In this document: piece after piece, positions 1 to 18,166 of the stretch
Layout of the letters: the number at the start of each line of letters is the position of its first letter
Position numbering within the stretch: the stretch's first letter is position 1
NCBI GenBank assembly: GCA_028698995.1
Contig: JAQVVM010000009.1
Coordinates: 10,172-74,171, forward strand
Origin: Bacteroidales bacterium
Lineage (GTDB): Bacteria; Bacteroidota; Bacteroidia; Bacteroidales; PXBB01
DNA: 64,000 bases
Direction of reading: 5' to 3'
Position numbers and translations under genes: made by a program
The notes under the pieces: generated by a model
The model's input: the letters and a program-made list of their open reading frames with translations, nothing else
Databases searched by the model: none
Told to the model about the DNA's origin: nothing

Positions 1-702
1 CCGTTGGGCCGGTAACTCCATTTATTCCGGCTGCGCCTACTGCGCCCGTGGCGCCTATTGCGCCTGTATTACCTATAGCGCCTATAACTCCTGTTACTCC
101 GGTAGCACCTTTGGCTCCGGTATTACCTGTAGCACCTACTGCGCCGGTAACACCATTTGTACCTGCTGCTCCTGTAACACCTATTGGGCCTTGTGAACCG
201 GTATTTCCTATTGGGCCTTGTAAACCTACTGCACCCGTTGGGCCGGTAACTCCATTTATGCCGGCTGCGCCTACTGCGCCTGTAACGCCTATTGCGCCTG
301 TATTACCTATAGCGCCTATAGCTCCTGTTACTCCGGTAGCACCTTTGGCGCCTGTATTACCTGTAGCGCCTACTGCACCGGTAACACCATTTGTCCCTGC
401 TGCGCCTGTTACACCTATTGGGCCTTGTGAACCGGTATTTCCTATCGGGCCTTGTAAACCTACTGCACCCGTTGGGCCGGTAAATCCATTTATTCCGGCT
501 GCGCCTACTGCGCCCGTGGCGCCTATTGCGCCGGTTACTCCGGTAGCGCCTATAGCACCGGTATTACCGGTTAAACCGGTTGCTCCTATAGCACCGGTTG
601 GGCCGGTTGGTCCTGTAGATCCATTAATTCCATCTATACCATTTGTACCTGCTGTACCTGGTAATCCTGTGTTTCCTTGAAGGCCCTGAGGACCTGTTGG
701 GC
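1..702 (-). repeat. 234-bp tandem repeats in the collagen-like stalk
   Basis: The phrase CCGTTGGGCCGGTAA recurs at 1, 235 and (as CCGTTGGGCCGGTAAA) 469, so the period is exactly 234 bp, or 78 residues and 26 Gly-X-Y triplets. Copies 1-234 and 235-468 are almost identical; the third is shorter and diverges after about 570. The unit may continue beyond the left edge. Confidence 0.8.
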
Positions 703-2020
703 CTGTAGCACCAGGGGTGCCCGTTAATCCGGTTGGGCCGGGTGGGCCTATCATGCCCATATCTCCTTCGGGACCGGTTGGGCCGGTTAATCCTGTATTA
801 CCTGTAGCGCCTATTGCACCGGTACTTCCTGTTAAACCGGTTGCGCCTATTGCACCGGTTGGACCGGTTGCTCCGGTTGCTCCATTTATGCCATCAATTC
901 CATTTGGACCGGTAGCACCTGGTAATCCTGTGTTTCCTTGTATGCCTTGAGGACCCGTAGGACCCGTAGCTCCTGGAGAACCTGGTAATCCTGTGTCTCC
1001 TGTTGGACCGATGATGCCCATAGCTCCTTGAGGTCCCGTTGGACCTATTAATCCTGTATCACCCGTAGATCCTGTCAGACCAATATTTCCCTGAGGACCT
1101 TGTGGACCGGTAGCTCCAACATCACCCTGAATGCCTTGAGGACCGGTAGGACCGGTAGCTCCGGAAGAACCTGTTAAGCCGGTAGGGCCTGGAGGACCTA
1201 TCATGCCCATATCTCCTTCCGGGCCGGTAGGGCCGGTTATTCCGCTTAAGCCCATGGGACCGGTTGGACCTACTGCTCCCGCCGGACCTGTTAAGCCTAT
1301 GGGACCTTGTGGGCCTATAGCGGCAACCCAGATGGTGCCGTTAAAATACCAAAATTGAGCATAATCTAAGTCATATACCAGTAATCCATTGGCGGGGGAG
1401 GAAATCGCATTGCGTTCTGAGGTTTTTAATCTTGGAATCAAAATACCTTTGGTGGTACTTTCCAATTCCATTATTGCACTGGGAGCTGTTATCTGAGGAT
1501 TATCGCCTACTTTATAATTTCTTACATCACTAAAGGCTATATTATTTCCATCTAAATCAACAAGACGGTTTCCATTAATAGTACCATCCGCTGTATATAT
1601 GTTATCTCCGCCACTTCCTAATTTTATCCAATAGCCATCTGAAATATCTATTGTCCCTGTTGGATTATAGAAATAGTAAAACCCCGGAGTAACACTGACA
1701 ACTTGTCCCTGACCTGTAAGCGTGCTGCCGGTGCCTACATTATACACAATCATGCCATCAAAGGCTGTTGGAAACATGCTGCCATCCAACAAATCTGTTT
1801 TGAATTCCCATTGGGTTAAATCAGTACGAGGAAAAACAAGACCTTTATTGTTGTTATTTTCAAAAGTAACCGAGGGATCATGATTGGTGGATGCATCAAA
1901 AAACGGGTTTTGATTGGGGATACTGGGATCTACCGGATTTCCTGTGAGAACTTGTGCTTCTGATTTTATCAGAACAAAGCAAATTATAAAAGTTAAAGTG
2001 ATTGACAGTATTTTTTTCAT
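1..2020 (-). CDS. Collagen-like secreted fibre protein, C-terminus cut by window edge
   Basis: Open from ATG at 2020 to the window edge in one frame (673 complete codons, no stop). Residues 1-23 form a signal peptide ending KSEAQ. Residues about 24-115 are the module shared with the two genes at 2720-5839 and 6179-11035 (starts VLTGNP, contains [20 protein letters not shown]). Residues about 115-230 form a linker region typical of Bacteroidota surface proteins ([16 protein letters not shown], then [13 protein letters not shown]). From residue about 232 to the edge the protein is an apparently uninterrupted Gly-X-Y run, about 146 triplets, with Thr very common in the Y position (GPT, GAT, GNT), as in bacterial collagens that are glycosylated on Thr. 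The function is not known; a trimeric surface fibre is inferred. The missing end probably carries the anchoring or trimerising domain. Confidence 0.85.
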
Positions 2021-2545
2021 TAAAAATCATGTTTTTATTTATATAAAAATATAAAAATAGTTATTTAAAATATGTCAATATCAAATAAAATAAATTAAAC
2101 AGTATTTGGTTGTATTTTTTGTATAAGTGGTAGTATTTTATTAATACTAGATACGCTGTTGCTTCTTTTTCAACAATTTAAGCAGGTTAATGAGAAATTG
2201 TAATAAATAAGCTTCCAAATATACTTTAAAGAAGCATATTTAGATTTTATACTTTGTAAAACAATAGAACTAAACTTTAGTCACTTGATATAAAACTTTT
2301 TCTGCTTTAAGGGTATTTATATAACGAGGGTATTCTTTTGACAACCCTTACAATGTTTCTTATAGAGAGGTTAATAATGAGTATAAGGGGAAGAAAAGAA
2401 GAAATGATTAATACTACTATCCTTTCCTACAATGCTTATAAACAGGCAATAAACTTCACTTTACAATATTCTAAGTAATCATACCACAATGGTGTATAAA
2501 AGATAGAAGCTTTGGGTTCAAATATAAATACCTATTCCTTTATTC
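2021..2545. other. Gene-free AT-rich spacer
   Basis: This is upstream of the collagen-like gene. I see no open reading frame with credible coding character, no RNA gene and no clear TAnnTTTG box facing the gene at 2020. It may be the decayed body of the gene whose C-terminal end survives at 2546-2716. Confidence 0.5.
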
Positions 2546-2716
2546 TTATTTTTGCAGCTTAAGGGCTTCAATTTCTGTTTGCTGTTGTTCAACAAGGGCT
2601 TTGAGAGAGAGAATCATCTGGTTTTGCTCCTGGATGGCTTTGAATATAGGAATAATTAAAACTTCATCATTTACACTTTGGATTAAGTCTTCATAATCAA
2701 AGAAAAAACACAATGT
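2546..2716 (-). pseudogene. C-terminal remnant of a fibre protein (chaperone domain end and coiled coil)
   Basis: In the minus strand, an open stretch of about 56 codons ends at TAA 2548-2546 and has no in-frame start that makes sense; TAA 2719-2717 closes it upstream. It reads NDEVLIIPIFKAIQEQNQMI followed by a heptad-like Gln/Glu/Leu tail. This matches the end of the S74-type domain of the neighbour ([20 protein letters not shown]), where a short globular end leads into a C-terminal coiled coil. It starts just after the stop codon of the gene at 2720-5839. I read it as the surviving 3' end of another fibre paralogue, lost by recombination or decay; readthrough translation is not supported. 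Confidence 0.6.
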
Positions 2717-2719
2717 TTA

Positions 2720-5700
2720 CTATTTATCTTCCATATTCAATAAATTCTTAATCTCATTAATTTGAGTTTTCAGTTCTTCATTGTCATCTTGAAGCTTTTC
2801 AATAGTGACTTCTTGCTCCTGAATTGCCTTAACAAGTATAGGAATCAACCCAATATAATTTATAGCTTTGTATTCAATAACAGGGTCTTCATCATTTTCA
2901 CCAGGATGTGCTCCTTTTTCAACTAAAGTAGGAAAAACTTCTTCCATTTCCTGAGCAATAAATCCAATCTGATTTCCACTAGCAAAATTCATAAATGGAT
3001 ATTCCTCTGACTTCATGCTGTATGTGACTGGATGAAGCTTAAGAATATTGTTTAAAGCACCACTGTAATCTTCTACGTCTTTTTTAAATTTGATATCAGA
3101 TACTTGTGTCCAGGTGCCGGTATAGCCACCGTTTCCGGAACAATATACGCCATAGTTTACGTTTGCCCCACCAGCATATCCATAAATGCCATATGCAGTG
3201 TTGCCTCTATATGCATACCCGTAAACTGCATAATTGGTTCCGCTCGTATTATTTTTAAAAATCCAATTTCTACTACCATAGACATTACCCGTTCCATTAT
3301 GATCCAGACTGGTATAAATTCCATACATTGCGGACGATGATGTTGATGTGCTATAAACATGTAGCTTTGAAAGAGCACTTGGTATTGTTATTCCAATCCC
3401 CACAATTCCATTCTTCAATACCGTCACAGCGTTGCTTCTTTCATTAGGATCGCCAGGTATTCCATTTCCATTGCCTATTACAAACAGGCGGTCAGCAGGA
3501 TCCCAACTCTCTGTGCTCAGCGCTGTATAATCTGTATTGTATCTCCCAAATACAGTTTCATATCCCGAAGGGGCAGTTGTATAGTGTCCCATTGCAGTGG
3601 AAAAATAACCCGAAGCAGTTGTATTGGTCCCCATTGCTGTTGAATAATGTCCTGAAGCCGTTGCACCATTTCCCATTGCAGTAGATGAACCGCCCGAAGC
3701 GATTGTTGAATATCCCATTGCAGTAGACAAACCTCCAGAAGCAATTGTTGAACATCCCATTGCAGTAGAAAATTGTCCCGAAGCGATTGTTGAATATCCC
3801 ATTGCGGTAGAAACATCGTAAGAAGAGGTTGTTCCATATCCCATTGCAGTAGAAAATTGTCCCGAAGCGACTGTTGAATATCCTATTGCTGTTGAATAAT
3901 TTCCTATTGCTTTGGAATTATAACCCATAGCCACCGAATAATTTCCTATACTATCCTTATCCCATTGAGTTTCGGTTACCCGACCTACTCTAAATGCCGC
4001 TTTATCAGGATACCACATCATGCGGGTACCAGCACCTGAGGCTGGAGTATTGCCCGGGTTTGTCGACTTGTAAGAACCAACAAAAAGCACATTGCCGCCA
4101 CCGGTGGCAGTGCCTGATGTATGTAGCAAAGCGGTAGGTACATCCGCGCCAATCCCTGTATTCCCATTCTTCAATACCGTCATGGCATTGCTTCTTGCTG
4201 AAGGACCTGTGCCATTTCCTATAACAAACAGGCGGTCGGCAGAATTAAAACTGAGTGGGGCAGCCGGGGTATAGTCTGTATTAAAATAACCAATAACTGT
4301 TTCAAATCCTGAAGGGGCATTAGTGTAATATCCCATTGCTGTTGAAAGAATTCCTGAAGCTGTTGTGTTCTCTCCCATTGCTGTTGAGGCCTCTCCTGAA
4401 GCTGTTGTGTAGTATCCCATTGCTGTTGAAAAACTGCGTGAAGCTGTTGTGGAGTAACCCATTGCTGTTGAAGAATATCCATTTGCTTTAGTATTGCCAC
4501 CCATAGCTACAGAATAGTTGCCAATGCTGTCTTTATTCCAGTGTGTTCCTGTTACATGTCCTGCTCTAAAAGCTGCTTTATCAGGATACCACATCATGCG
4601 GGTGCCTGCGCCTGAAACGGGAGGATCTCCGGGTGAAGAGGATTTATATGAACCTGTAAAGAGCACATTCCCTTGTCCTATTCCAGTGCCATTGGTATGT
4701 AGCAGGGCACTTGGTGTTGAAGTTCCAATACCGACATTACCTGTTCTGTATATAGTGTCTGTTGTATTGGCATTACCGGTCCATTTGGGGTCTGTTTCGG
4801 TGAAACCTTCAAAGGCCACATTGTTAAGAGATCGGGTGCTCAGATCGCCGTTGTTGTCAATCATTACGGCATTGGTCTGTGTGCCGGTATTCAAACCTTC
4901 GTGCCTAACAGTGCCGACAGTATGGAAATTGGCCTGCGGAGCATCGGTGCCAACCCCTACACTGTTGTCTTTCACTATAAACACATCAAAAAAGCTTTCA
5001 TTCACAGTGAATTCCCACAAGTCGGCATAAGTGTGACCGCCTGTTTGGGCAAAACTGATATAGACACCAAAACCCATGTCAATATTTGGTGTTATGGCCA
5101 TAGGTGCTGACCAGGAGTTACCGCCGTCGTTGCTGATTTCAATTATATTTGGATTCGGGCCTGCATTCTGAATGCGTACTGCATAATGAGTAGCACCTGA
5201 GGTGTTGTATCCACTGCTGTTCACACTCAAATCATTGAGACCTGTACCGGTAAATACAGCACCGGCCCATGCACCGGGTACGGATATATGCAGTTTACCT
5301 GTCGGAGAAGTTTCTCCAATACCGACATTGGTGCCATTGTTGTAAAGGATGTCATTACCTACCCAGTCGGTACCATCATGTCTCATGGTTTGTCCATCAG
5401 TTCCTTGTGGCGGGATATAACTTGCACTACTAAGCGGCATCCATTGGCCATTTGAAATATCATCCACACCGCTCGGATTATAAAAATAATAAAACCCTGG
5501 TATAACACTTACAACTTGTCCTTGACCTGAAAGTGTAGTGCCGGTGCCTACATTATATACAATCATGCCATCAAAGGCAGTTGGAAACATGCTTCCATCC
5601 AACAAATCGGTAGTGAATTCCCACTGGGTTAAATCAGTTCTCGGAAAAACAAGACCTTTATTGTTGTTGTTTTCAAAAGTAACCGAGGGGTCATGATTGG

Positions 5701-5839
5701 TAGATGCATCAAAAAACGGGTTTTGATTAGGAATACTGGGATCTATCGGATTTCCTGTGAGAACTTGAGCTTGAGTATGAAAGAACAACATGCTGAAAAA
5801 GCAGATCAGAATTGATAACTGTAAATATATATTTTTCAT
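2720..5839 (-). CDS. Fibre protein with YadA-head-like repeats and C-terminal S74 chaperone domain (1039 aa)
   Basis: A signal peptide (residues 1-24, ending FHTQAQ) is followed by the shared module (about 25-135) and a conserved region to about 375. Two long modules come next, each starting with a GIG-type motif, then [19 protein letters not shown] and a KDSIGNYS segment, which leads into 14-residue repeats of the form STAMGYxTxASG (about 445-515 and 640-760) resembling YadA/Hep_Hag heads. After about 910 the S74 (endosialidase-type intramolecular chaperone) domain begins at VSDIKFKKD, with [12 protein letters not shown] typical of the family, and it ends in a coiled coil (about 1005-1039). 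In phage tailspikes this domain drives trimer folding and then cuts itself off before the Ser; release here is inferred. No T9SS sorting domain is visible, so the export route beyond the inner membrane is unclear. Confidence 0.85.
4575..5750 (-). repeat. Segment nearly identical to 9771-10950
   Basis: About 1.2 kb covering the region after the signal peptide through the first repeated module matches the neighbouring fibre gene almost base for base, including silent positions. The signal peptides on one side and the repeats on the other side differ clearly more. Confidence 0.75.
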
Positions 5840-6178
5840 ATAACAGAAAGTAAAAAAATTTATAGAGAGATGATTTATTAAAACAAGGGAGGTGTTATAA
5901 TCGGTATAAAAAGTAAAATTATTAATTTATTTTTAATTCAACAAAAATTATTTGTTTTTTTTCTAAGCTCATATATTAGATTAAACTCCCAAATTTATGA
6001 GTACATATTACACCATAACAAGTAAAAAGATTTGTATAATCTGGATGGGTAGTAATTGACTTTTTCTAATTCTTAAATCGAAGTTGAGAAATGTAATATA
6101 AAAATCGACTGTTGTGAAACAGCTCTTAGAAATGTAGTGTGTGAGAATTTTCGTAATTTAAATACGAAAAGAACAAGT
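5840..6178. other. Spacer between the two YadA-like fibre genes
   Basis: No gene is seen. A perfect 8-bp inverted repeat (TTTTCGTA at 6148-6155, TACGAAAA at 6163-6170, 7-base loop) lies just after the stop of the gene at 6179-11035. It could act as a weak terminator, but the pairing is AT-rich. No exact TAnnTTTG box facing the gene at 5839 was found; a near match with one extra base lies in the AT-rich stretch near 5940-5950. Confidence 0.45.
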
Positions 6179-9100
6179 TTATTTTTCAACCTGCATTTCA
6201 CTTTGCAAAGCATTAATGTTCAAAAAATTTGAAATTTGAGTCTGCTGTTGTTCAAGCATTTGGTTTAATTGAAGAATATCCTCTTGCAATGTTTTAATAA
6301 TATCTTGCTGTTCATTTACAGCCTGTAATAAAACCGCTGTCATTTTGTCGTAAGCAACAGATTTATAACCATTTTCCTCGGTAACAACAAATTCAGGGAA
6401 TTCGATTTCCAGTTCCTGTGCAATAAATCCGATATGCTTTCCATGACCCTGTACTATTGAGCTGTCCTGTATGAGGTCATATCTGACTCCTCTAAGATTG
6501 GCGATTTTACCCAAAGCATTTTCAATGCTTGTAATATTGGTTTTATACCTCGCATCAGAATTGGTAAGCCAACTGTATCCAGTCTGAACCCTACCGTTGC
6601 CACCGGTTATATCGAGTTTTTGCCCTGGATCAATATTATTGATACCAAGATTTCCGTTCTTAACAGACACATTGCCTCCGTTATAAATAAAAAAATGACC
6701 TTGAGAAACACTAACACCTATTCCAGCTACGTAAGAAGTATTATTATAAAAATCAATGACAGAAAGATCTGTAGATTGTATTCTCATTTTTGCGTGTCCG
6801 GAGGTATTTCTTAAATGTATTAATTCTAATGGTGTATCTGTACCTATACCTACTTTACCATTTTTTAGAATAGTCAAAGCATTACTGCGTGTAGAATTCC
6901 CTTGTCCGTTACCCACAACAAATATTCTGTCATCTGAATCCCATCCGCCGGGACTATTAGCAGTATATTCTGTGTTATACCGTCCAAATACCGATTCATA
7001 TCCGGAAAATGCAGTTAAATTTGTTCCAAAGGTATTAGACATATAACCCTGTGCAATTGTAGAATTGCCAATTGCCATAGCATAATTGCTTGATGCTGCA
7101 TTATTATAGCCGATAGCAACAGAATAATTATTATTAGAACTATTATTATAACCCAAAGCAATAGAACTGGCACCTTTGGCTTTGGAATTGTAACCCATAG
7201 CCAGAGAATATGCACCAATACTGTCCTTATCCCATTGAGTTCCGGATACATATCCAACCCTGAAAGCAGCTTTATCAGGATACCACATCATGCGGGTACC
7301 ACTACCGGTGACAGGAGGATTGCCGGGGGTAGATCTATAAGAGCCTTCAAAAAGCACATTGCCACCTCCTATAGCGGTACTATAAGTATGTAATAAAGCA
7401 TCAGGTGTATCAGTACCGATACCAATATTACCACTCTTTAATACCGTAAAAGCATTACTCCTTGCGAGATCATTCAACCCATTTCCAATAACAAAAAGCC
7501 TGTCTGTGGAAACCCATCCGGATGAACTCTGAGCTGTGTAAGTTGTATTATAGCGCCCTATTACCATTTCGTTTCCAGAAGGGGCAATTGTTTGTTTCCC
7601 CATGGCAGTTGAAACATCCCCTGAGGCAAGAGTACTTTCTCCCATTGCAGTTGAGCTTGTACCTGAAGCAACAGTAACATTGCCATTTGCAAATGACATA
7701 GAACCTGAGGCAATAGTATTATTACCCATCGCTGTGGAAGAGCTTGCTGAGGCTGTAGTGGAAACACCTATGGCAAAAGCATAATAATTAGTAGCTTTAG
7801 TACCTGCGCCCATGGCTGTAGCATAAAAACCAATGGCTTTTGTATTATAACCTGTTGCAAACGAGTAATCTCCTATACTGTCTTTATCCCAGTTTGTTGT
7901 AGGTACATAACCTGCTCTGAAAGCTGCCTTGTCAGGATACCACATCATACGGGTGCCGGTACCTGAAATGGGGGGAGATCCGGGAGATGAGGATTTGAAA
8001 TTACCTGTAAACAGCACATTTCCCCCGCCTGTTGCAGAATCGTTTACATGCAATAAAGCCATAGGAGCGAAAGTACCAATACCGGTTTTACCGTTTTTAA
8101 GAATGGTCAGCGCATTGCTTCTTGCTGAACCAGAGGTGCCGTTTCCAACTACAAAAAGGCGGTCGGTAGCCACCCATGAGGTAGCATTTCCAGAGTAGGT
8201 AGTATTGTAACTTCCGATAACCGTTTCGGATTCTGATACAGCAGTGGTATATGAACCCAAGGCTGTTGACTTGTCTCCATTAGCTATTGTGAAATATCCC
8301 ATAGCCATGGAAGCACCTCCTGATGCAATTGTGCTTGTACCCGTTGCAGTTGAATAAGCTCCTTTAGCCATTGAATTTATCCCGAAAGCAACTGAAAACC
8401 AACCAATGCTGTCTCTATCCCAATATGGTCCATCTGCAGTGCCTGCTCTGAAAGAAGCTTTATCAGGATACCACATCATACGGGTGCCTGCGCCTGAAAC
8501 TGGAGGATTACCAGGAGAAATACCTTTAAATTCTCCCGTAAACAGCACATTTCCGCCACCTGTTGCAGAATCATTTACATGAAGCAAAGCTAAAGGGTTA
8601 AAAGTACCTATACCGGTTTTACCGTTTTTAAGAATAGTCAGCGCATTGCTTCTTGCTGAACCAGAGGTGCCGTTTCCAACTACAAAAAGGCGGTCGGTAG
8701 CCACCCATGAGGTAGCATTTCCAGAGTAGGTAGTATTGTAACTTCCAATAACCGTTTCGGATTCTGATACAGCAGTGGTATATGAACCCAAGGCTGTTGA
8801 CTTATCTCCATTAGCCATTGTGAAATATCCCATAGCCATGGAAGCACCTCCTGATGCAATTGTGCTTGTACCCGTTGCGGTTGAATAAGCTCCTTTAGCC
8901 ATTGAATTTATCCCGAAAGCTACTGAAAACCAACCAATGCTGTCTCTATCCCAATATGGTCCATCTGCAGTGCCTGCTCTGAAAGAAGCTTTATCAGGAT
9001 ACCACATCATACGGGTGCCTGCGCCTGAAACTGGAGGATTACCAGGAGAAATACCTTTAAATTCTCCCGTAAACAGCACATTTCCGCCACCTGTTGCAGA

Positions 9101-11035
9101 ATCATTTACATGAAGCAAAGCTAAAGGGTTAAAAGTACCGATACCGGTTTTGCCGTTTTTAAGAATGGTGAGTGCATTGCTTCTTGCTGAACCAGAGGTG
9201 CCGTTTCCAATTACAAAGAGTCTGTCAGTAGCCACCCAATTGGAGGCGTCTCCTGAGTAAGTCGCACTGTAACTTCCCATAACCGTTTCATAAGCTGAAG
9301 CTGCAGTAGTGTTTGAACCCATTGCTGTTGAAAAATCGCCCGAAGCTGATGTAGCAATTCCCATTGCTGTTGAACTGTTTCCTGAAGCAACAGTTGAATT
9401 CCCAATTGCAGTAGCATAATCGGCTGAAGCTGTGGCTGAGAATCCTAATGCTGTAGATGCGCCTCCTGAAGCAAGGCTGGTATAGCCCAGAGCCATAGAA
9501 GCGTAACCATCTGCCATAGCGAAGAGACCGATTGCAGTAGCGTTATTTGCTGAAGCTGAACTGCTATTTCCAATGGCAGTAGCATAATCGCCTAAAGCTA
9601 TTGAAATTCTGCCAATTGCAATTGATGCATAACCAGAGGCAACACTGTTCTGGCACAATGCGACTGAAGAAAAACCCTTGGCTTTGGTGTCATAGCCAGT
9701 TGCAAACGAATAATTACCCACACTGTCTTTATCCCAAAAAGCGCCCAACACACGCCCAGCTCTGAAAGCAGCTTTATCGGGGTACCACATCATACGGGTG
9801 CCTGCGCCTGAAACGGGAGGATCTCCGGGTGAAGAGGATTTATATGAACCTGTAAAGAGCACATTCCCTTGTCCTGTTCCAGTGCCATTGGTATGTAGCA
9901 GGGCACTTGGTGTTGAAGTTCCAATACCGACATTACCTGTTCTGTATATAGTGTCTGTTGTATTGGCATTACCGGTCCATGTAGGATCGGTTTCTGTGTA
10001 GCCATCGAAAGCCACATTGTTCAGTGTTCTGGTACTTAAATCCCCATTATTGTCAATCATAAGGGTATTGGTTTGGGTGCCGGTATTCAAACCTTCGTGC
10101 CTAACAGTGCCGACAGTATGGAAATTGGCCTGTGGAGCATCGGTGCCAACCCCTACACTGTTGTCTTTCACTATAAACACATCAAAAAAGCTTTCGTTTA
10201 CAGTGAATTCCCACAAGTCGTCATAGGTGTGACCGCCTGTTTGGGCAAAACTGATATAGACACCAAAACCCATGTCAATATTTGGTGTTATGGCCATAGG
10301 TGCTGACCAGGAGTTACCGCCGTCGTTGCTGATTTCAATTATATTTGGATTCGGGCCTGCATTCTGAATGCGTACTGCATAATGAGTAGCACCTGAGGTG
10401 TTGTATCCACTGCTGTTCACACTCAAATCATTGAGACCTGTACCGGTAAATGCAGCACCGGCCCATGCACCGGGTACGGATATATGCAGTTTACCTGTAG
10501 GAGAAGTTTCTCCAATACCGATATTGATGCCATTGTTGAAAAGGATGTCATTACCTACCCAGTCGGTACCATCATGTCTCATGGTTTGTCCATCAGTTCC
10601 TTGTGGAGGGATATAACTTGCGCTACTAAGCGGCATCCATTGGCCATTTGAAATATCATCCACACCGCTCGGGTTATAAAAATAATAAAACCCTGGTATA
10701 ACACTTACAACTTGTCCTTGACCTGAAAGTGTAGTGCCGGTGCCTACATTATATACAATCATGCCATCAAAGGCAGTTGGAAACATGCTGCCATCCAACA
10801 AATCGGTAGTGAATTCCCACTGGGTTAAATCAGTTCTCGGAAAAACAAGACCTTTATTGTTGTTGTTTTCAAAAGTAACTGATGGATCATGATTGGTGGA
10901 TGCATCAAAAAACGGGTTTTGATTGGGAATGGCAGGCTGAACAGGATTACCGGTTAATACCTGAGCTACGGTCTGAAAAATCAACAAGTTAAAAAAGCAG
11001 ATCAGTACAAATAGTTGTAAAAAATTATTTTTCAT
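6179..11035 (-). CDS. Large fibre protein with five repeated modules and S74 chaperone domain (1618 aa)
   Basis: It has the same architecture as the gene at 2720-5839 but with five repeated modules instead of two. After a signal peptide (ending FQTVAQ) and the shared N-terminal region (to about 380), each module has a GIGT motif, LALLHV or similar, [23 protein letters not shown], a run of YadA-head-like 14-residue repeats (SxAxGxxxxAxG), an ETVxGxYN segment and DRLFVxGNG. The second and third modules are an almost exact 177-residue duplication. After about residue 1400 comes a different segment ([12 protein letters not shown]), then the S74 domain from NSDARYKTN (about 1493) with [14 protein letters not shown], and a Gln-rich coiled coil to the end. 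No T9SS signal is seen. A long trimeric surface fibre is the likely product; its ligand is unknown. Confidence 0.85.
8080..9141 (-). repeat. 531-bp tandem duplication inside the fibre gene
   Basis: The phrase GCTGTCTCTATCC occurs at 8408 and again at 8939, giving a period of 531 bp (177 codons, in frame). The two copies differ at only a few bases; one change gives Met instead of Ile in the segment GYFT(M/I)ANGD. Boundaries are approximate. Confidence 0.85.
9771..10950 (-). repeat. Segment nearly identical to 4575-5750
   Basis: This is the partner of the near-identical block in the neighbouring fibre gene. Scattered single-base differences remain (for example the codons around 10000-10060 and 10510-10540). 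Confidence 0.75.
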
Positions 11036-11103
11036 ATAACTTAAGATTAAAGATGTGTAATGAATGATGAGCTATTAAAAAAGAAAGGACATAATAAGAA
11101 AAA

Positions 11104-11111
11104 CAAAAATA
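11104..11111 (-). promoter_or_regulatory. Putative -7 box of the 1618-aa fibre gene
   Basis: TATTTTTG on the minus strand matches the Bacteroidota consensus TAnnTTTG, about 70 bases upstream of the ATG at 11035. A -33 box is not distinct in the AT-rich background. Confidence 0.4.
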
Positions 11112-11325
11112 TATAAATTTATTAATTAAACAATTAATTTAAAAATTTGAATGTTTTAAAAGGCAGAAAAATTTTTTTGTCTATTTTTAATATGAAAATC
11201 ACTACAATAAAGCTATAGAAAACAAGAAGTATAGAATTTTTAAAGAGGAAATGTATTTTGTACAATTCTGTGTTTAAGTGGCAGTAAAAAATGATATCAC
11301 TTTTTATAATATCAATAAAAACATT

Positions 11326-11333
11326 TATATTTG
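11326..11333 (+). promoter_or_regulatory. Putative -7 box of the NSS transporter
   Basis: TATATTTG fits TAnnTTTG, with a start codon at 11406, giving a leader of roughly 65 bases. The stretch 11036-11405 is otherwise a gene-free divergent promoter region. Confidence 0.5.
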
Positions 11334-11405
11334 TTCCGTATATTTAATCTTAATGTTTGATTTTTAGATAATTATTTATAGTAGTTTTATACTAAATTGT
11401 ATTCT

Positions 11406-13220
11406 ATGACAACAAATAAAGAAGCCTGGGGGTCTCGCGTAGGTTTAATTTTGGCAATGGCAGGGAATGCAGTCGGTCTTGGTAACTTTTTACGCTTTCC
11501 GGTACAGGCTGTTCAGAATGGAGGAGGTGCTTTTATTATTCCTTATCTGGTGTGTTTTCTTTTAATGGGAATCCCATTATTATTTATTGAATGGTCAATC
11601 GGCAGATATGGGGGTCAATTTGGACATCATACCACACCTCTTACTTTTAACCGTATGTCCAAAGGCTCTTTATGGAAATATATCGGTGTTTTTGGCATTT
11701 TTTCAAACATAGCCATTGCTTCCTACTATTGCTATATAGAAAGCTGGACAATGTCTTATGTATATCATTCTGCAATTGGAACATTTAAGGGAATGGACCA
11801 GCATAGTGTAGCATATTTTTTTGATAACTATCTTAATATTTTTACCACAACTACAGGAATACCTTTCGAGGCTGTTTTGTTTTTTTTATTCTGTATCGTT
11901 TTAAACACATGGGTTTTAAGTCGTGGTCTGATAGGTGGAGTAGAAAAAGTGGCAAAGATAAGTATGCCGCTATTGATTATTTTTGGTGTTTTTCTTGTTG
12001 TTAAAGCTATATTTTTAAAAGCAGGTCATGAAGGAGCTATTAATGATGGCACTGTGGGATTAAATTTTCTGTGGACACCTCAGTACAGCTCACTCACCAA
12101 CCCTAAAGTGTGGCTGGCTGCTGCAGGTCAAATATTTTTCACCCTTTCTTTAGGACAGGGGTCTGTACAATGTTATGCATCTTATGTTAAGAAAAAAGAT
12201 GATATTGCCCTTAATGCCATGTCGGCAGGATGGATGAACGAATTTGTTGAAGTTGTTTTGGGTAGTGCCATTATCATTCCAATCTCAATTGGCTATCTTG
12301 GGATTGATAAAGTTATAGAGCTTACTTCAAGTGGTGGCTTAGGATTAGGTTTTAGGACAATACCCTATTTATTTCAACAATGGGGACCTCTTTTAGCTGC
12401 ATCAGCTGGTATTGCCTTTTTTGGATTACTTTTCTTTGCAGGGATAACCTCTTCATTAGCCATGGGTACACCGGTCATGTCATTTCTAATGGATGAATTC
12501 AATTGGAAACGATCACGAGCTGCCATAGCCTTTGGTGTAAGCGTACTTATTCTTGGACTACCAACAGTTTTGTTTTTTCAGAAAGGTGTGTTTGATGAAT
12601 ATGATTATTGGGCAGGAACTGTTTCTCTTGTGCTTTTTGCCATGTTTGAGGCAATTCTGTTTTCGTGGGTATTTGGCCTAAAAAAAGGATGGGGAGAAAT
12701 TACAGCAGGATCAGACATTAAAATTCCGGGCATCTTTAAGTATATTATAAAGTTTGTAACACCCATAATTCTTATTATTGTTTTCTTTGGTTCTTTAATT
12801 CGTCCTGCAAAAGATGATTGGTCTGCAATAAGACCTACTGGATGGAAATTACACCCCGAAAGTATTATTTCTCAAATACGACATGATAATATTGGCCCAA
12901 ATAAAACCTATTTTACCGATAAATTTTATACCGAAGTATCCGGAATTATTGATTCAATATATTCAGACAGTGAGAAAAATTACATTATTGTGCAGAAAGA
13001 AGACGGCAATTTTAAAACTTTTGAAACAGAATTACAAAATATTGCATCTGTTAATAAAGGAGATATTGTAAAAATCGGTGACACCATCTTTGAAGGTAAT
13101 TTCATAAATAATGTATTTTATATTGATATGTCGAGGCTTTTACTTTTACTTTTGTTTTTTTCAATTTGTATTTTAATATTTATTGCTTATCGTAAACGTA
13201 AAAAAGAAGGGACTTTATAA
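11406..13220 (+). CDS. Sodium-dependent transporter, NSS (SNF) family
   Basis: This is an inner-membrane Na+ symporter of the neurotransmitter:sodium symporter family, which moves amino acids or related solutes. The N-terminus MTTNKEAWGSRVGLILAM and the following GNAVGLGNFLRFP form TM1, whose unwound middle binds sodium and substrate in LeuT-type carriers; FxxPY-type TM2 follows (GGGAFIIPYL). I count about 12 hydrophobic segments. A soluble stretch of about 100 residues (roughly 470-570, including HPESIISQIRHDN) precedes the last membrane segment, which is longer than in LeuT. I chose ATG 11406 rather than an in-frame TTG three codons earlier because MTTNKEAW is the usual start. One base separates its stop from the next gene. 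The substrate cannot be told from sequence alone. Confidence 0.92.
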   Translation: MTTNKEAWGSRVGLILAMAGNAVGLGNFLRFPVQAVQNGGGAFIIPYLVCFLLMGIPLLFIEWSIGRYGGQFGHHTTPLTFNRMSKGSLWKYIGVFGIFSNIAIASYYCYIESWTMSYVYHSAIGTFKGMDQHSVAYFFDNYLNIFTTTTGIPFEAVLFFLFCIVLNTWVLSRGLIGGVEKVAKISMPLLIIFGVFLVVKAIFLKAGHEGAINDGTVGLNFLWTPQYSSLTNPKVWLAAAGQIFFTLSLGQGSVQCYASYVKKKDDIALNAMSAGWMNEFVEVVLGSAIIIPISIGYLGIDKVIELTSSGGLGLGFRTIPYLFQQWGPLLAASAGIAFFGLLFFAGITSSLAMGTPVMSFLMDEFNWKRSRAAIAFGVSVLILGLPTVLFFQKGVFDEYDYWAGTVSLVLFAMFEAILFSWVFGLKKGWGEITAGSDIKIPGIFKYIIKFVTPIILIIVFFGSLIRPAKDDWSAIRPTGWKLHPESIISQIRHDNIGPNKTYFTDKFYTEVSGIIDSIYSDSEKNYIIVQKEDGNFKTFETELQNIASVNKGDIVKIGDTIFEGNFINNVFYIDMSRLLLLLLFFSICILIFIAYRKRKKEGTL

Positions 13221-13221
13221 C

Positions 13222-13374
13222 ATGAAAACTACTGCTTTATTATTTATGGTCATTACTGAAGTGATAATTACAGGACTCACATTCTACTTCTTTTTTAAAG
13301 TTTTATTTATAAAACCCCGCATAGATGTTGATGAAGATTCTTATACGGAAAACGACACCCCTGTTAAACAATAA
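13222..13374 (+). CDS. Small membrane partner of NSS transporter (MetS-like)
   Basis: A 50-residue protein with a single membrane span (ITEVIITGLTFYFFFKVLFI) and an acidic, hydrophilic tail (about 31-50). It starts one base after the transporter stop, so it is almost surely co-translated. Small single-span subunits of this kind accompany NSS transporters such as the methionine carrier MetP/MetS of Corynebacterium. A longer in-frame reading from 13183 would overlap the transporter and is less likely. Confidence 0.75.
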   Translation: MKTTALLFMVITEVIITGLTFYFFFKVLFIKPRIDVDEDSYTENDTPVKQ

Positions 13375-13692
13375 TTTTTTGTATTGTTAAAATGCAGTTT
13401 AAATTTTAAATACCATCTAATTAATTATTTACACAAAGCATTGTTGTATTTGCCTGTATTACAATGCAGGGAGCAGAGTTAGACTGACATTAATATTAAC
13501 AAAGACATATTAATAATCATTAAAATCGCTGAAAGATTCGGGGTTGAACTGAGGAAAATATCTTCTTGTAAATGAGATACTTCTTCGCCTATGACAAATC
13601 AATAAGGCAAAACAATGGTAATATGGGAGTTGAAAACAATGGTAAATTGCTTGTTACACTAAAATGGACAAGTCAGGAAAGTAGCTTTACAT
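13375..13692. other. Gene-free spacer with a degenerate repeat
   Basis: No coding frame is convincing. The stretch 13567-13614 (TGTAAATGAGATA, then CAATAAGGCAAAACA) resembles part of the dispersed element at 58721-58824. Weak inverted repeats occur at 13367-13388 and 13438-13467. Confidence 0.45.
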
Positions 13693-13901
13693 AGGGTCTG
13701 CTGAAAAAGTCTGAGGTGCGCCGAATTTGAGGCCACGAGGCGAAGATGTATATGAATACTTCGAGCCGAAGTAACGAAAAAGACGGCGTGCATCAGGCTA
13801 ACACAAACACATTAAATTTCTAGAGATGCTCTTCTTTTACTAAATAAAGATATTCATAAACATCTATGAATATGTGTGTTGTGTGTTTTTCAGCAGACCC
13901 T
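13693..13901. mobile_element. MITE-like element, 209 bp, with 16-bp terminal inverted repeats
   Basis: The left end AGGGTCTGCTGAAAAA (13693-13708) is the perfect reverse complement of the right end (13886-13901). The element is flanked on both sides by ACAT (13689-13692 and 13902-13905), which looks like a 4-bp target-site duplication. Inside are further inverted repeats (ATATTCAT at 13850-13857 with ATGAATAT at 13866-13873) and no reading frame for a transposase. It has more G+C at its left half than the flanks. This fits a non-autonomous derivative of an insertion sequence; the parent family is not identified. Confidence 0.75.
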
Positions 13902-13967
13902 ACATAACCAAAGGACTCTGTTATGCATCAAATTTAAACGCTTAAGTTCCTTTTCTTATTTTTTTTA

Positions 13968-13975
13968 TATTTTTG
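13968..13975 (+). promoter_or_regulatory. Putative -7 box of gmk-nadD
   Basis: TATTTTTG matches TAnnTTTG, about 30 bases upstream of the gmk start at 14005. Confidence 0.5.
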
Positions 13976-14004
13976 TAATATTAAAGACCTCATAAAAATT
14001 CTAA

Positions 14005-14571
14005 ATGATTGGTAAGTCTGTAATATTTTCAGCCCCTTCCGGCTCCGGAAAAACAACTATTGTAAAGGAACTTTTAAAAAAGGGATTACCTCTTGAATTT
14101 TCGGTATCGGCTTGCAGCAGACCTAAAAGAGATGGAGAAATACATGGTACCGATTATTATTTCTTAAGCGTAGATGAGTTTAAAAAGAAAATTGCGAATA
14201 ATGAATTTATTGAATGGGAAGAAGTTTACAGTGGCAGTTATTACGGAACTTTAAAATCAGAGCTGACGCGTATTTGGCAAAAAGGCAAACATGTTTTATT
14301 CGATCTTGATGTTTTGGGAGGTGTTAATATAAAAAAAATATTCAATGAAAATGCTTTGGCAATTTTTATAAAACCACCATCTCTTGATGAATTGGAAAAA
14401 AGACTTATAAACAGATTGAGTGAAACGCCGGAAACACTTAGTAAAAGAATGGCACGTGCACAAATGGAGCTATCTTACGAAAAAGAATTTGATATCTGTA
14501 TCACAAACGATAATTTGGATGAAGCAATCATTAAAGCAGAAGAAGCCGTATTAAGCTTTATTAAGAAATAA
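14005..14571 (+). CDS. gmk: Guanylate kinase
   Basis: It phosphorylates GMP to GDP with ATP in the cytoplasm. The P-loop FSAPSGSGKTT sits at residues 9-19, followed by the GMP-binding region (SACSRPKRDGEIHGTDYYF, with the conserved SRxxRxGExxGxDYxF pattern) and a lid with ExYSGSYYGT. At 188 residues it has the normal length. It is followed four bases later by nadD, so the two are probably one transcript. Confidence 0.96.
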   Translation: MIGKSVIFSAPSGSGKTTIVKELLKKGLPLEFSVSACSRPKRDGEIHGTDYYFLSVDEFKKKIANNEFIEWEEVYSGSYYGTLKSELTRIWQKGKHVLFDLDVLGGVNIKKIFNENALAIFIKPPSLDELEKRLINRLSETPETLSKRMARAQMELSYEKEFDICITNDNLDEAIIKAEEAVLSFIKK

Positions 14572-14575
14572 CTTC

Positions 14576-15184
14576 ATGGGAATAGAAAGAAAAAACTATA
14601 AAGATATTACCCTCAAAACAGGATTGTTTTTTGGTTCTTTTAATCCTATACATATTGGACATCTTATAATGGCCCAATATTTTATTGAATTTACAGATAT
14701 TCAACAAATTTGGTTTATTGTATCTCCTCACAATCCGCTTAAGCAAAAAAAAACACTTGCCGATGACCATCACAGACTAAACATGGTAAAAGCAGCTATC
14801 GAAGATAACCTCAACTTCCGAGCTTCGGATATTGAATTTAAAATGCCCCAGCCATCATATACTATAAATACACTGACTTATCTTAAAGAAAAATATCCCG
14901 AAAAAAAATTTGTTTTGCTTATGGGAGGCGACAACCTTGAATCGCTCCCTAAATGGAAAAATTATGAAATGATAGTTGCAGAACATGACATCTATGTTTA
15001 TCAGCGTTTGGGAACAAAACCCTTCAACCAGACAGAATTTCCTCGAATTAAGTGTTTTGAAGTTCCCTTGCTCGACATTTCATCAAGTTTTATAAGAAAA
15101 TCCCTGAAAGAAGGAAAGGACATGAAATATTTTCTTAATGAAAAAGTATATAGTTATATAAAAGAAATGTTCCTTTACGAATAA
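14576..15184 (+). CDS. nadD: Nicotinate-nucleotide adenylyltransferase
   Basis: It adenylates nicotinate mononucleotide to deamido-NAD in NAD synthesis. The nucleotidyltransferase motif GSFNPIHIGH (about 20-29) contains the HxGH catalytic pair, and ISSSFIRKSL (about 171-180) is the family's second nucleotide-binding motif. MGGDN lies between them. Length (202 aa) is usual. The N-terminus has about 14 extra residues before the core strand. It faces infB tail to tail. Confidence 0.95.
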   Translation: MGIERKNYKDITLKTGLFFGSFNPIHIGHLIMAQYFIEFTDIQQIWFIVSPHNPLKQKKTLADDHHRLNMVKAAIEDNLNFRASDIEFKMPQPSYTINTLTYLKEKYPEKKFVLLMGGDNLESLPKWKNYEMIVAEHDIYVYQRLGTKPFNQTEFPRIKCFEVPLLDISSSFIRKSLKEGKDMKYFLNEKVYSYIKEMFLYE

Positions 15185-15190
15185 AAAGTA

Positions 15191-15209
15191 AACTCTTTTT
15201 TAAAGAGTT
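15191..15209. terminator. Hairpin shared by convergent nadD and infB
   Basis: AACTCTTT (15191-15198) and AAAGAGTT (15202-15209) form an 8-bp stem with a 3-base loop. The infB stop codon lies in the hairpin. T-rich sequence follows in the minus direction (TTTACTTTTTATT), so it can end infB transcription and perhaps nadD too. Confidence 0.55.
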
Positions 15210-18166
15210 CTCTTAATTTCAATCTGTTCGTAACCCTCAATAATATCTCCGGTACGAATATCGTTAAAACTCTGAATATTAAGCCCGCACTCGTATCCTG
15301 ATGTTACTTCCTTTACATCATCTTTAAAGCGTTTAAGAGATCCGAGAACACCGGTATAAATTACAATTCCATCACGAATAACACGAATTTTTGTACTCCT
15401 CATAACTTTACCGTCAAGGACCATACAACCGGCAACTGTTCCGACTTTGGTAATATGAAATACTTCTCTAACCTCAATGTTGCAAAGAATTTTCTCTTCA
15501 ATTTCAGGAGAAAGCATACCTTCAATAGCAGAACGGATTTCATTAATAGCGGTATAAATAATTGAATATAAACGAATATCAATTTGCTCCTTTTCGGCTT
15601 CTCTCTTAGCACCAACTGTAGGCCTGACCTGGAATCCCACGATAATAGCATTTGATGCCTGAGCTAAAGAAACATCAGACTCGGTAATAGAACCTACAGA
15701 CTTATGGATAACATTTACCTGAACTTCTTCTGTGCTCAATTTGATTAATGAATCTGCAAGTGCTTCAATAGAGCCATCCACATCTCCTTTAATAATAAGG
15801 TTGAGTTCTTTAAAATCTCCAATGGCAATGCGTCTGCCAATTTCATCAAGTGTGATGTGTTTTTGAGTACGTAAACCCTGTTCACGAATCAATTGTTGTC
15901 TTTTAAGGGCCATGCTTTTTGCTTCTTTCTCATCCCTAAAAACATTAAAGGTGTCGCCTGCTTGCGGGGCTCCGTTTATTCCAAGAATTAAAACCGGTGT
16001 TGCTGGTCCGGCCTCTTTTACAGGTATATTTCGTTCATTAAACATTGATTTTATTTTCCCAAAATGACTTCCGGCAACCAACACATCTCCAACCTTTATA
16101 GTTCCGTTTTGTACCAAAACTGTTGATAAATACCCCCTGCCTTTGTCAAGAGAAGACTCTATAACTGTACCTAAGCCCGGTTTTTTAGGATTGGCCTTAA
16201 GTTCCAATACATCTGCTTCAAAACATATTTTTTCTAAAAGCTTGTCGATGTTTATTCCTTCTTTTGCATTGATGTGCTGACATTGATACTTACCGCCCCA
16301 ATCTTCAACAAGAATATTGATATTTGCTAATTGTTCTTTAACCCTTTCCGGATTTGCAGTGTTCTTATCAATTTTTGTTATGGCAATAACAATAGGCACA
16401 CCAGCTGCTTGAGCATGATTGATAGCTTCGATGGTCTGAGGCATAACGCCATCGTCGGCTGCAATAACAATAATGGCAATATCAGTGACTTTGGCTCCGC
16501 GGGCACGCATAGCTGTGAATGCCTCATGGCCGGGGGTATCAAGAAATACAATCTTTCTGTTGTCATCTAATCTTACTTCATAGGCCCCAATGTGCTGAGT
16601 AATTCCTCCTGCTTCTCCAGCTACAACATTGGATTTTCTGATAAAGTCCAACAGTTTGGTTTTTCCGTGGTCAACGTGACCCATTACAGTAACTATAGGT
16701 GAGCGTTCTACCAGATCTTCAGTATTGTCTGGTTCTTCTTCAATAACATTATGATCCTCAACACTTATAAAATCAACTTTATACCCAAACTCTTCTGCAA
16801 CAATACTTATCGTTTCAGCATCCAATCGTTGATTGATTGAAACAAACAAACCTAAACTGAGACACATGGATATAATTTCAGTTACCTGAACATTCATCAT
16901 TTTTGACAACTCATTTGCTGTTACAAATTCAAGAACTTTGACAACTTTCAAGTCTTCTGCCATTTGCTCATTTCTTTCTTGTTGCTGCTGTTTGTCATGG
17001 TCTCTTTTTTGCCTTCGGTATTTGGCTGCTTTCGACTTCTGAGGGCCACTTAATCGTGCCAGTGTATCTTTAATTTGCTTTTGAATTTCTTCTTCGCTTA
17101 TTTCAGGCTTCTTAACACTTTTATTTTTAGTGTTATCTTTGTTGTCGTATCCACCAACGCCCTTATTATCCTTGAAAATTCTTTTTCGTTTTTTCCTTTG
17201 ATTATCTGCCCCTGAATTCTGCTGTGTTGTTGAAGACTTTTCATCTTTGCGGGTATCTTTTTTATCATTAAGATCAATCTTTCCCAAGATGGTGGGCCCT
17301 TTTAATTTTGTAGTATTGTCTTTAAAAGATTCTTTACCCTCAAATTTTTCTTTGAGTTCCGCTTTCTGTTCCGTGCTGATGATGTTATTTTCTTCTTCCT
17401 GTTCTTTTTCTTTTATTAAATCAGCTTCTTTCTTGCTTTCCTTTGTTTTTTGTTTTTGATCTTCTTTTTCTTTTATCTTGCTTTGCTTTTCTTTATCCTT
17501 TTCCTCTCTTGTTTTTCTGGCCGGTTTTGTTTTTGAATTTATCTGTGATAAATCAATCTTACCAACAACCTTTAACTTTGATTCTTGTTTGTCTTCTTGT
17601 AATGGGTTAATTCCTTCATCAACTTCTTCTATAATCTCCTCTTCTTCAACACTGATTAATTCTTCTTTAGGAGCTTCCTCAATAATAGTTACGACTTCTT
17701 CAGAAATTTCCTCAACGGGTATTTCATTAGGTGTTATAACAACTTCTGTTTTTTCAACTATTTCAGGTTCTTCAGCTTTTTGTTTTTTCTCAACCTTTTC
17801 TTTCTTATCCGGTTTAATTTCTTCTACGGGCTCTTTCTCATGCTCAATCTTTTTTGACTTGATTAAAAGCTCGTCTTTCTTCTCTTTTTCTTGCGTTGAA
17901 ATTTCAACAGTTTTAATATTCTTATCAAGGCTTACAGTTGTCTTAACTTCAACTTCCAAATTTATCTTTGAGGCATCTTCCTTTACTTTCTTATCTCCCT
18001 GAAATTCCTTTAACAAAAGTTCGTAAGCTTCTGCCGAAATTTTGGTATTGGGATTATTGTCGATCTTAATTCCTTTTTTTGTAAGGAATTCAAATGCTGT
18101 GTTCATGCCAATATTCAAATCCCTAGCAGCCTTTGACAGTCTTACTGATGTTAAATTTTCACTCAT
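15200..18166 (-). CDS. infB: Translation initiation factor IF-2
   Basis: This is the GTPase that brings initiator tRNA to the ribosome. The N-terminal IF2-N motif (about 1-60) leads into a long Lys/Glu-rich disordered stretch (about 70-400), a second IF2-N-like domain ([16 protein letters not shown]), then the G domain: GHVDHGKT (G1), DTPGHEAF (G3) and, at the G4 position, ITKID. The last is unusual because IF-2 normally has NKxD; the codon here is ACA (Thr). Domains II to IV follow, ending EQIEIKRTL. At 988 aa it is in the normal range for Bacteroidota. It is the last gene of rimP-nusA-infB, 31 bases after nusA. Confidence 0.97.

Follow-up and report, generated by a model that had tools for sequence, protein, structure and literature searches.

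The fibre genes described here find their closest described design, by analogy, in the mosaic adhesive trimer (MAT) family of Bdellovibrio bacteriovorus, in which an invariant domain of ~130 residues stands straight after the signal peptide and is followed by variable trimeric rods and tips, with an S74 end in 13 of 21 members; the solved MAT structures cover C-terminal parts (PMC10769870). We analysed a window of 64,000 nucleotides from a Bacteroidales bacterium (GenBank assembly GCA_028698995.1, contig JAQVVM010000009.1, positions 10,172 to 74,171), which opens with three adjoining minus-strand genes for fibre proteins that have an N-terminal module in common. As in MAT, these genes belong to a large paralogous family (21 members in MAT) whose proteins have a signal peptide, then an invariant base, which is beta-rich in MAT, and then exchangeable tips; the base of the present family is a module of 112 residues. 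In both families, S74 with its SDxxxK motif is found in some members and not in others. The two differ in phylum (Bdellovibrionota versus Bacteroidota) and in their rods, collagen and YadA-head rods being found only in the present family, and no surface partner is known for the MAT base, whereas a link to the type IX secretion system (T9SS) is suggested here. The MAT base and the module were compared by description only, and we do not file the family as MAT. Our reading, to which we give a probability of about 60%, is that the genes encode Sec-exported paralogous fibre adhesins, most likely homotrimers, made on one plan in which the mature N-terminal base module is invariant while rod and end can be exchanged, and probably held by T9SS complexes. 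On this reading the fibres would be trimeric, sit at the cell surface, serve in adhesion and dock to T9SS complexes, and the S74 members would be cleaved.

Other known systems resemble these fibres in parts. Trimeric autotransporter adhesins (YadA, BpaC, Ata) share YadA-head repeats and, probably, trimeric rods, but the present fibres have neither a YadA anchor nor an autotransporter C-terminus, and their base is N-terminal; a Pfam scan of the second and third window genes found no type Vc C-terminal YadA anchor, only YadA_head and S74 being above cutoff. Gly-X-Y rods also occur in the collagen-like adhesins Lcl of Legionella and SclA/SclB of streptococci, and one member of the family (C98a) ends in Lcl_C; however, the N-terminus is another one, there is no LPXTG anchor, and the SclB model exceeds its cutoff only via the collagen repeat. 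Phage S74 tailspikes and fibres (endosialidase, the T5 L-shaped fibre) and the ICA domain of MyRF share the S74 end with its serine-lysine dyad, whereas the present family has a signal peptide and a probable cellular surface setting. Finally, type B cargo proteins of T9SS, which carry a C-terminal domain (CTD), are described as binding PorP-like proteins at the surface together with PorE (PMC9143113) and as depending on their cognate PorP/SprF (PMC12618676). The same gene set as in PG1035-PorP-PorE and SprB-SprF adjoins genes for fibres with a generic relative of the module in several genomes, this one included, but the fibres themselves have no CTD, and the passages of both papers on these systems do not mention such fibres. 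A search of the literature on collagen, S74 and T9SS fibres in Bacteroidota found nothing on the module family. The fibre design is already known from another phylum; what appears to be new is the T9SS surface-complex partner suggested by gene neighbourhood.

A constant base module with exchangeable rods and ends

The first-pass annotation had described three consecutive genes with a common signal peptide and about 110 further residues, one continuing into a collagen stalk and two into YadA-head repeats with an S74 end. This observation is confirmed: the signal peptide and about 112 mature residues are common to all three, with roughly 90-97% mutual identity, and Pfam matches collagen (PF01391) in gene 1 and YadA_head (PF05658) with Peptidase_S74 (PF13884) in genes 2 and 3. 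The family is larger than had been noted. The whole genome (G000; 4.47 Mb, 119 contigs) holds 14 complete module copies and 2 cut by contig ends, with six in tandem on C64, the contig of the window, four on C98, two on C28 and one each on C83 and C49; of the cut copies, one is at the end of C49 and the other at the start of C50. Since these contig ends fall within family repeats, C64 (reversed), C49 and C50 may form one array, and because all three end inside family copies the true number of copies may be higher. A signal peptide precedes the module in every complete copy, and what follows the module varies: a collagen rod with an ALK_LTK_GRD end (C64d) or a Gly_rich_2 end (C83a), a YadA head with S74 (C64e, C64f, C98c), an S74 end without YadA head (C64c), a YadA head with fn3 and Lcl_C (C98a), fn3 with Fib_succ_major (C49a), or long collagen with ends that have no Pfam match (C64b, C28a, C28b, C50a). 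These results confirm a large and modular fibre family in which a constant N-terminal module precedes differing rods and ends.

The conserved unit is the mature module. In every copy it begins with the glutamine that signal peptidase exposes, and glutamine at the mature N-terminus fits the Bacteroidetes Q-rule (PMC5837995). Across the copies of this genome the module has a mean amino-acid identity of 91% (83-100% over all copies), while its fourfold-degenerate sites are different at 33% of positions on average and at as many as about half in the pairs that lie furthest apart, whose amino acids are still 82-88% identical. The ratio of nonsynonymous to synonymous divergence (dN/dS) has a median of 0.10 over 91 pairs and, where dS exceeds 0.8 (17 pairs), a mean of 0.10. 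When the rods of a pair differ, the windowed identity drops sharply past the module, and the signal peptides and upstream DNA have diverged among the copies, the exception being C28b and C64d with about 109 bp upstream in common; apart from this pair, a search for common promoters upstream of the copies turned up nothing beyond short or patchy similarity. Purifying selection acts on the module, and the combination of high fourfold divergence, low dN/dS and the drop of identity past the module indicates selection on the mature module beyond recent copying. Recent duplication and gene conversion of tandem repeats, with no modular function, could also make N-termini alike, as might be thought from pairs that are near-identical as DNA (C64d and C28b, 98%) and from contigs that break in repeats; this explanation is largely refuted by the synonymous divergence, is at odds with the recurrence of the module in other genera, and seems to us highly improbable.

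We scanned one genome per species for the module. It was found at 40 loci elsewhere in Bacteroidota, mostly in Chryseobacterium and other Weeksellaceae and at a few in other Bacteroidota, with 29-62% identity in other genera and sharp boundaries. In nearly all 40, the signal peptide leads directly into the module and then into rods that differ; the module is followed by collagen, by S74-like ends, by FISUMP-like or C1q/TNF-like ends (as read from the sequences) or by a short conserved end. The proposal of a common base joined to exchangeable rods is therefore borne out by the 14 copies of this genome and by the 40 related loci with other rods, and the anticipated recurrence at the N-terminus before other stalks was found. 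Distribution of the module is patchy. A profile search detected it in 6 of 395 Bacteroidota genomes (the G214 hit and one G305 hit being weak and bordering on the generic domain treated below), and the 14 complete and 2 cut copies of this genome go beyond chance compared with 0 of 40 other sampled genomes of the order in a single-sequence search.

A separate observation concerns Chryseobacterium (L026-L034, L036-L042 and alike), where two short genes (about 215 and 240 aa), conserved as a pair, occupy one syntenic place genus-wide. The second gene of the pair encodes a module protein, often ending ...SPSMSVVYP.GTYDYV.EY.K.

Collagen, YadA-head and S74-linked repeat rods form trimers in known proteins, and by analogy with these domain types homotrimers are most likely here. 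In genes 2 and 3, PF13884 is above its curated cutoff (E 2e-14 and 4e-16), and the S-D-x-x-x-K motif is intact as S914/K919 in the 1039-aa protein and S1493/K1498 in the 1618-aa protein; four family members of this genome have the motif. The window serines and lysines align with the serine-lysine dyad of MyRF (S587/K592) and of phage S74 domains, and in MyRF the cleavage point is just before the serine of the dyad (PMC8326128). Because the intact SDxxxK motif aligns with the MyRF dyad, self-cleavage and trimerisation of the S74-bearing members are expected from sequence. The S74 end would drive the folding of the trimer before cleaving itself away, and the Lcl_C, Fib_succ_major or glycine-rich ends of other members could be adhesive tips.

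At another locus (L112 of G166, 4415-12283), three tandem proteins with the generic domain have T9SS-CTD-like ends by a profile built for this analysis (FlgD_ig-like in Pfam in the one scanned). In that protein S74 precedes the CTD-like end, and self-cleavage would take the sorting domain off with the S74 fragment.

Relation of the module to a generic head domain

The module matched no family in Pfam, NCBIfam or PHROGs, and a PDB search by sequence returned nothing. Comparison by hhalign with two alignments (A2 and A6) of a generic Bacteroidota head domain gave 95.8% and 96.8%, with E values of 7.5e-9 and 2e-10, and by this comparison the module is an extended version of an N-terminal head domain that occurs across Bacteroidota. 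The generic form follows the pattern GIGTxxPxxSAxLxxxSTxKGLLIPRMTxxQRxAIxxPAxGLxVYxTxTxxFyyyxGxxW, was detected with a seven-sequence profile in 47 of 198 sampled Bacteroidota genomes, about a quarter, and is confined to the first 75 residues in 68 of 73 proteins. No Pfam model matches it and its PHROG similarity is only partial, some members matching PHROG tail-fibre families with E values down to 4e-8. The idea of a new surface-attachment or export module is accordingly supported in part: it belongs to no Pfam, NCBIfam or PHROGs family, but it is a long variant of a domain found throughout the phylum, and gene context favours docking over an export signal.

Weak-to-moderate PHROG tail-fibre matches of the generic head domain, along with the S74 ends and some stalks that match phage tail-fibre families, are what would be seen if these were tail fibres of a prophage, a tailocin or a contractile-injection system. 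Such an origin has next to no chance in our estimation, given the signal peptide on every complete copy and the genes downstream of the window fibres, which are housekeeping genes (gmk, nadD, infB, nusA; names from sequence); moreover, no module relative was confirmed among 2.9 million viral contigs.

The AlphaFold model of the module has good confidence for residues 39-112, residues 1-38 being mostly undefined. The model of the generic head domain (pLDDT, the predicted local distance difference test, 85) has three strands corresponding to those of the module, and its top structural matches are the N-terminal residues of phage Mtd, phage hyaluronidase, tailspike domains and the trimerisation domains of collagens XV and XVIII. 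Each of these is weak, with Foldseek probabilities of up to 0.97 but E values of 0.15 or worse, and VIA Z up to 4.8, but it is suggestive that they agree on trimer caps. The head domain would probably act as an N-terminal trimer cap and as the cell-proximal end of the fibre.

Secretion-system genes beside the fibre genes

SprA is present in the genome, as are at least 150 matches to T9SS CTDs. As the first-pass annotation had stated, the three window fibre proteins have no T9SS sorting signal: curated domain scans (TIGR04183, TIGR04131, PF18962, PF13585) were negative, and a Pfam search found no such domain in the remaining copies of this genome. Among generic head proteins, 4 of 72 end in a T9SS signal according to profiles built for this analysis; as these four carry the signal, the head domain is not a substitute export signal in them.

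In the first ten loci with the generic domain, T9SS CTD genes adjoined the head genes. Forty further loci, which were not used in forming the idea, served as an independent test set, and in these a CTD was present in 13 of 77 adjacent genes versus 14 of 304 at a distance of three or more (p = 6.6e-4), and in 13 of 43 co-directional versus 1 of 37 opposite-strand neighbours. All fifty loci together gave 20 of 98 adjacent genes versus 14 of 338 at distance (p = 1.8e-6), and the gaps between head gene and CTD gene were mostly short or overlapping. Five operons combine a head fibre, a type B CTD protein and PorP/SprF. The one in G210 reads head fibre with collagen and S74, type B CTD protein, PorP/SprF and an OmpA/PD40 PorE-like protein; that in G162 has the same order with a different fibre, the PorE-like gene being known from these two only. 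In G065, two head fibres are followed by the type B CTD gene, PorP/SprF and a cut gene. The remaining two, on C37 and C88 of the present genome, consist of type B CTD protein, PorP/SprF and head fibre, and are the two best own-genome matches of a partner profile derived from other genomes. With the module itself, the connection to T9SS is thinner than with the generic head domain: module-bearing operons that begin with a CTD protein were found at L025, L051 and L028, all outside Weeksellaceae (the L025 CTD is below curated cutoffs), and a CTD protein lies within the C49 array of this genome.

The enrichment of head genes beside T9SS cargo points to docking on surface complexes placed by T9SS and not to a free-standing export signal. 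Because head genes tend to share operons with CTD proteins, some of them also with PorP/SprF and PorE-like genes, it is probable that complexes delivered by T9SS hold the fibres at the cell surface and perhaps also bring them there. We tentatively suggest, as a possible but not favoured outcome, a more specific arrangement in which fibres dock through the module or its generic relative, so that those without a T9SS signal would be displayed via type B CTD/PorP/PorE complexes and one anchor could take any trimeric rod.

Several points weigh against T9SS-held fibres with a trimer-cap base. The head domain has only weak fold matches, and a fold search with the model of the module itself yielded no clear PDB or BFVD match and no good VIA match. 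No T9SS partner adjoins the window genes, none was found beside the module genes in Chryseobacterium loci, and the partner profile had no match in four Chryseobacterium-like genomes. In addition, some loci come from related genomes and so lack phylogenetic independence, and the CTD profiles of the scan were built for this analysis, with representatives confirmed by TIGR04183, TIGR04131, PF18962 or PF13585. Since no partner gene adjoins the window genes, docking of the window family would be in trans; and as the partner is neither beside these genes nor found in Chryseobacterium, docking of the module to T9SS anchors is something that we infer. SprA was present in 47 of 47 genomes with the head domain, which agrees with the reading, but we rejected its presence as a test of T9SS dependence: the test is confounded by phylogeny, the SprA-negative genomes listed being nearly all of one family.

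The module might instead be only an N-terminal trimerisation cap, with another surface route (release, or contact with lipid or polysaccharide) and with T9SS neighbours that reflect shared surface regulation. That the top fold matches are trimerisation domains and that most arrays of the module family have no T9SS partner would agree with this, but the short-gap co-directional operons with type B CTD, PorP and PorE-like genes suggest a physical set, and the strong conservation of the module across differing rods suggests, as an argument only, a common partner beyond trimerisation. We consider a cap without docking rather unlikely. If the fibres are indeed held by T9SS-delivered complexes, T9SS would gain a role in the display of proteins without a sorting signal. 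The cell-side partner of the MAT base was left open by the Bdellovibrio work, and the operons described here offer candidates for Bacteroidota, namely the type B CTD, PorP/SprF and PorE-like proteins.

Three further loci show other arrangements of head genes. At L111 (G204, 5586-16488), five tandem head genes of about 700 aa with similar ends lie right downstream of a T9SS type A cargo gene. Two secreted head proteins at L113 (G057, 5884-6528 and 6722-7366) have a C-terminal phage Tail Collar domain (PF07484 in the one that was scanned), and a T9SS type A cargo gene starts 17 nucleotides after their genes. The 1574-aa head protein at L115 (G065, 3997-8721) has Imm33 as its sole Pfam match (E 1.8e-9, above cutoff, with no single stretch passing), and its gene shares an operon with type B CTD and PorP/SprF genes.

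Features of the window

Gene 1 is cut by the window start. It extends past the window to about C64:8306, where it ends in the glycine-rich ALK_LTK_GRD, and crosses an assembly gap of 100 N (G000:C64:10072-10171) that lies inside its collagen rod and ends one base before window position 1. Besides the module it contains a second, shorter relative of it.

Table. Positions of the fibre genes and their parts in the window.
Feature	Position	Strand	Remarks
Fibre gene 1	2..2020	-	673 aa in window; signal peptide, module, second short head domain, collagen rod; ALK_LTK_GRD glycine-rich end outside window
Module of gene 1	1619..1954	-	Mature residue Q23 to about 134
Second head domain in gene 1	1316..1516	-	Generic (short) form, after module
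Collagen Gly-X-Y rod of gene 1	2..1315	-	146 unbroken triplets within window
Fibre gene 2	2720..5839	-	1039 aa; signal peptide, module, beta-rich linker domains, YadA-head repeats, S74 end
Module of gene 2	5432..5767	-	Mature Q25 to 136
YadA-head repeat region of gene 2	3470..4540	-	Period 42 nucleotides; outer limits approximate, read from translation
Peptidase_S74 of gene 2	2921..3100	-	Predicted self-cleavage before S914 (codon 3098-3100); C-terminal tail reads as coiled coil
Possible remnant of a lost S74-type C-terminal tail	2546..2716	-	Immediately 3' of gene 2, DYEDLIQSVNDEVLIIPIFKAIQEQNQMI...; weak, E 0.006-0.014
Fibre gene 3	6179..11035	-	1618 aa; signal peptide, module, YadA-head repeats, S74 end
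Module of gene 3	10628..10963	-	Mature Q25 to 136
Peptidase_S74 of gene 3	6386..6559	-	Predicted self-cleavage before S1493 (codon 6557-6559); tail after S74 reads as coiled coil, as in gene 2

Displaced (Rhs-like) tail remnants were sought behind the other family copies and none was found. Only gene 2 gave a candidate: right after its stop, ~56 codons weakly resemble an S74-type C-terminal coil, as if an older tail had been displaced.

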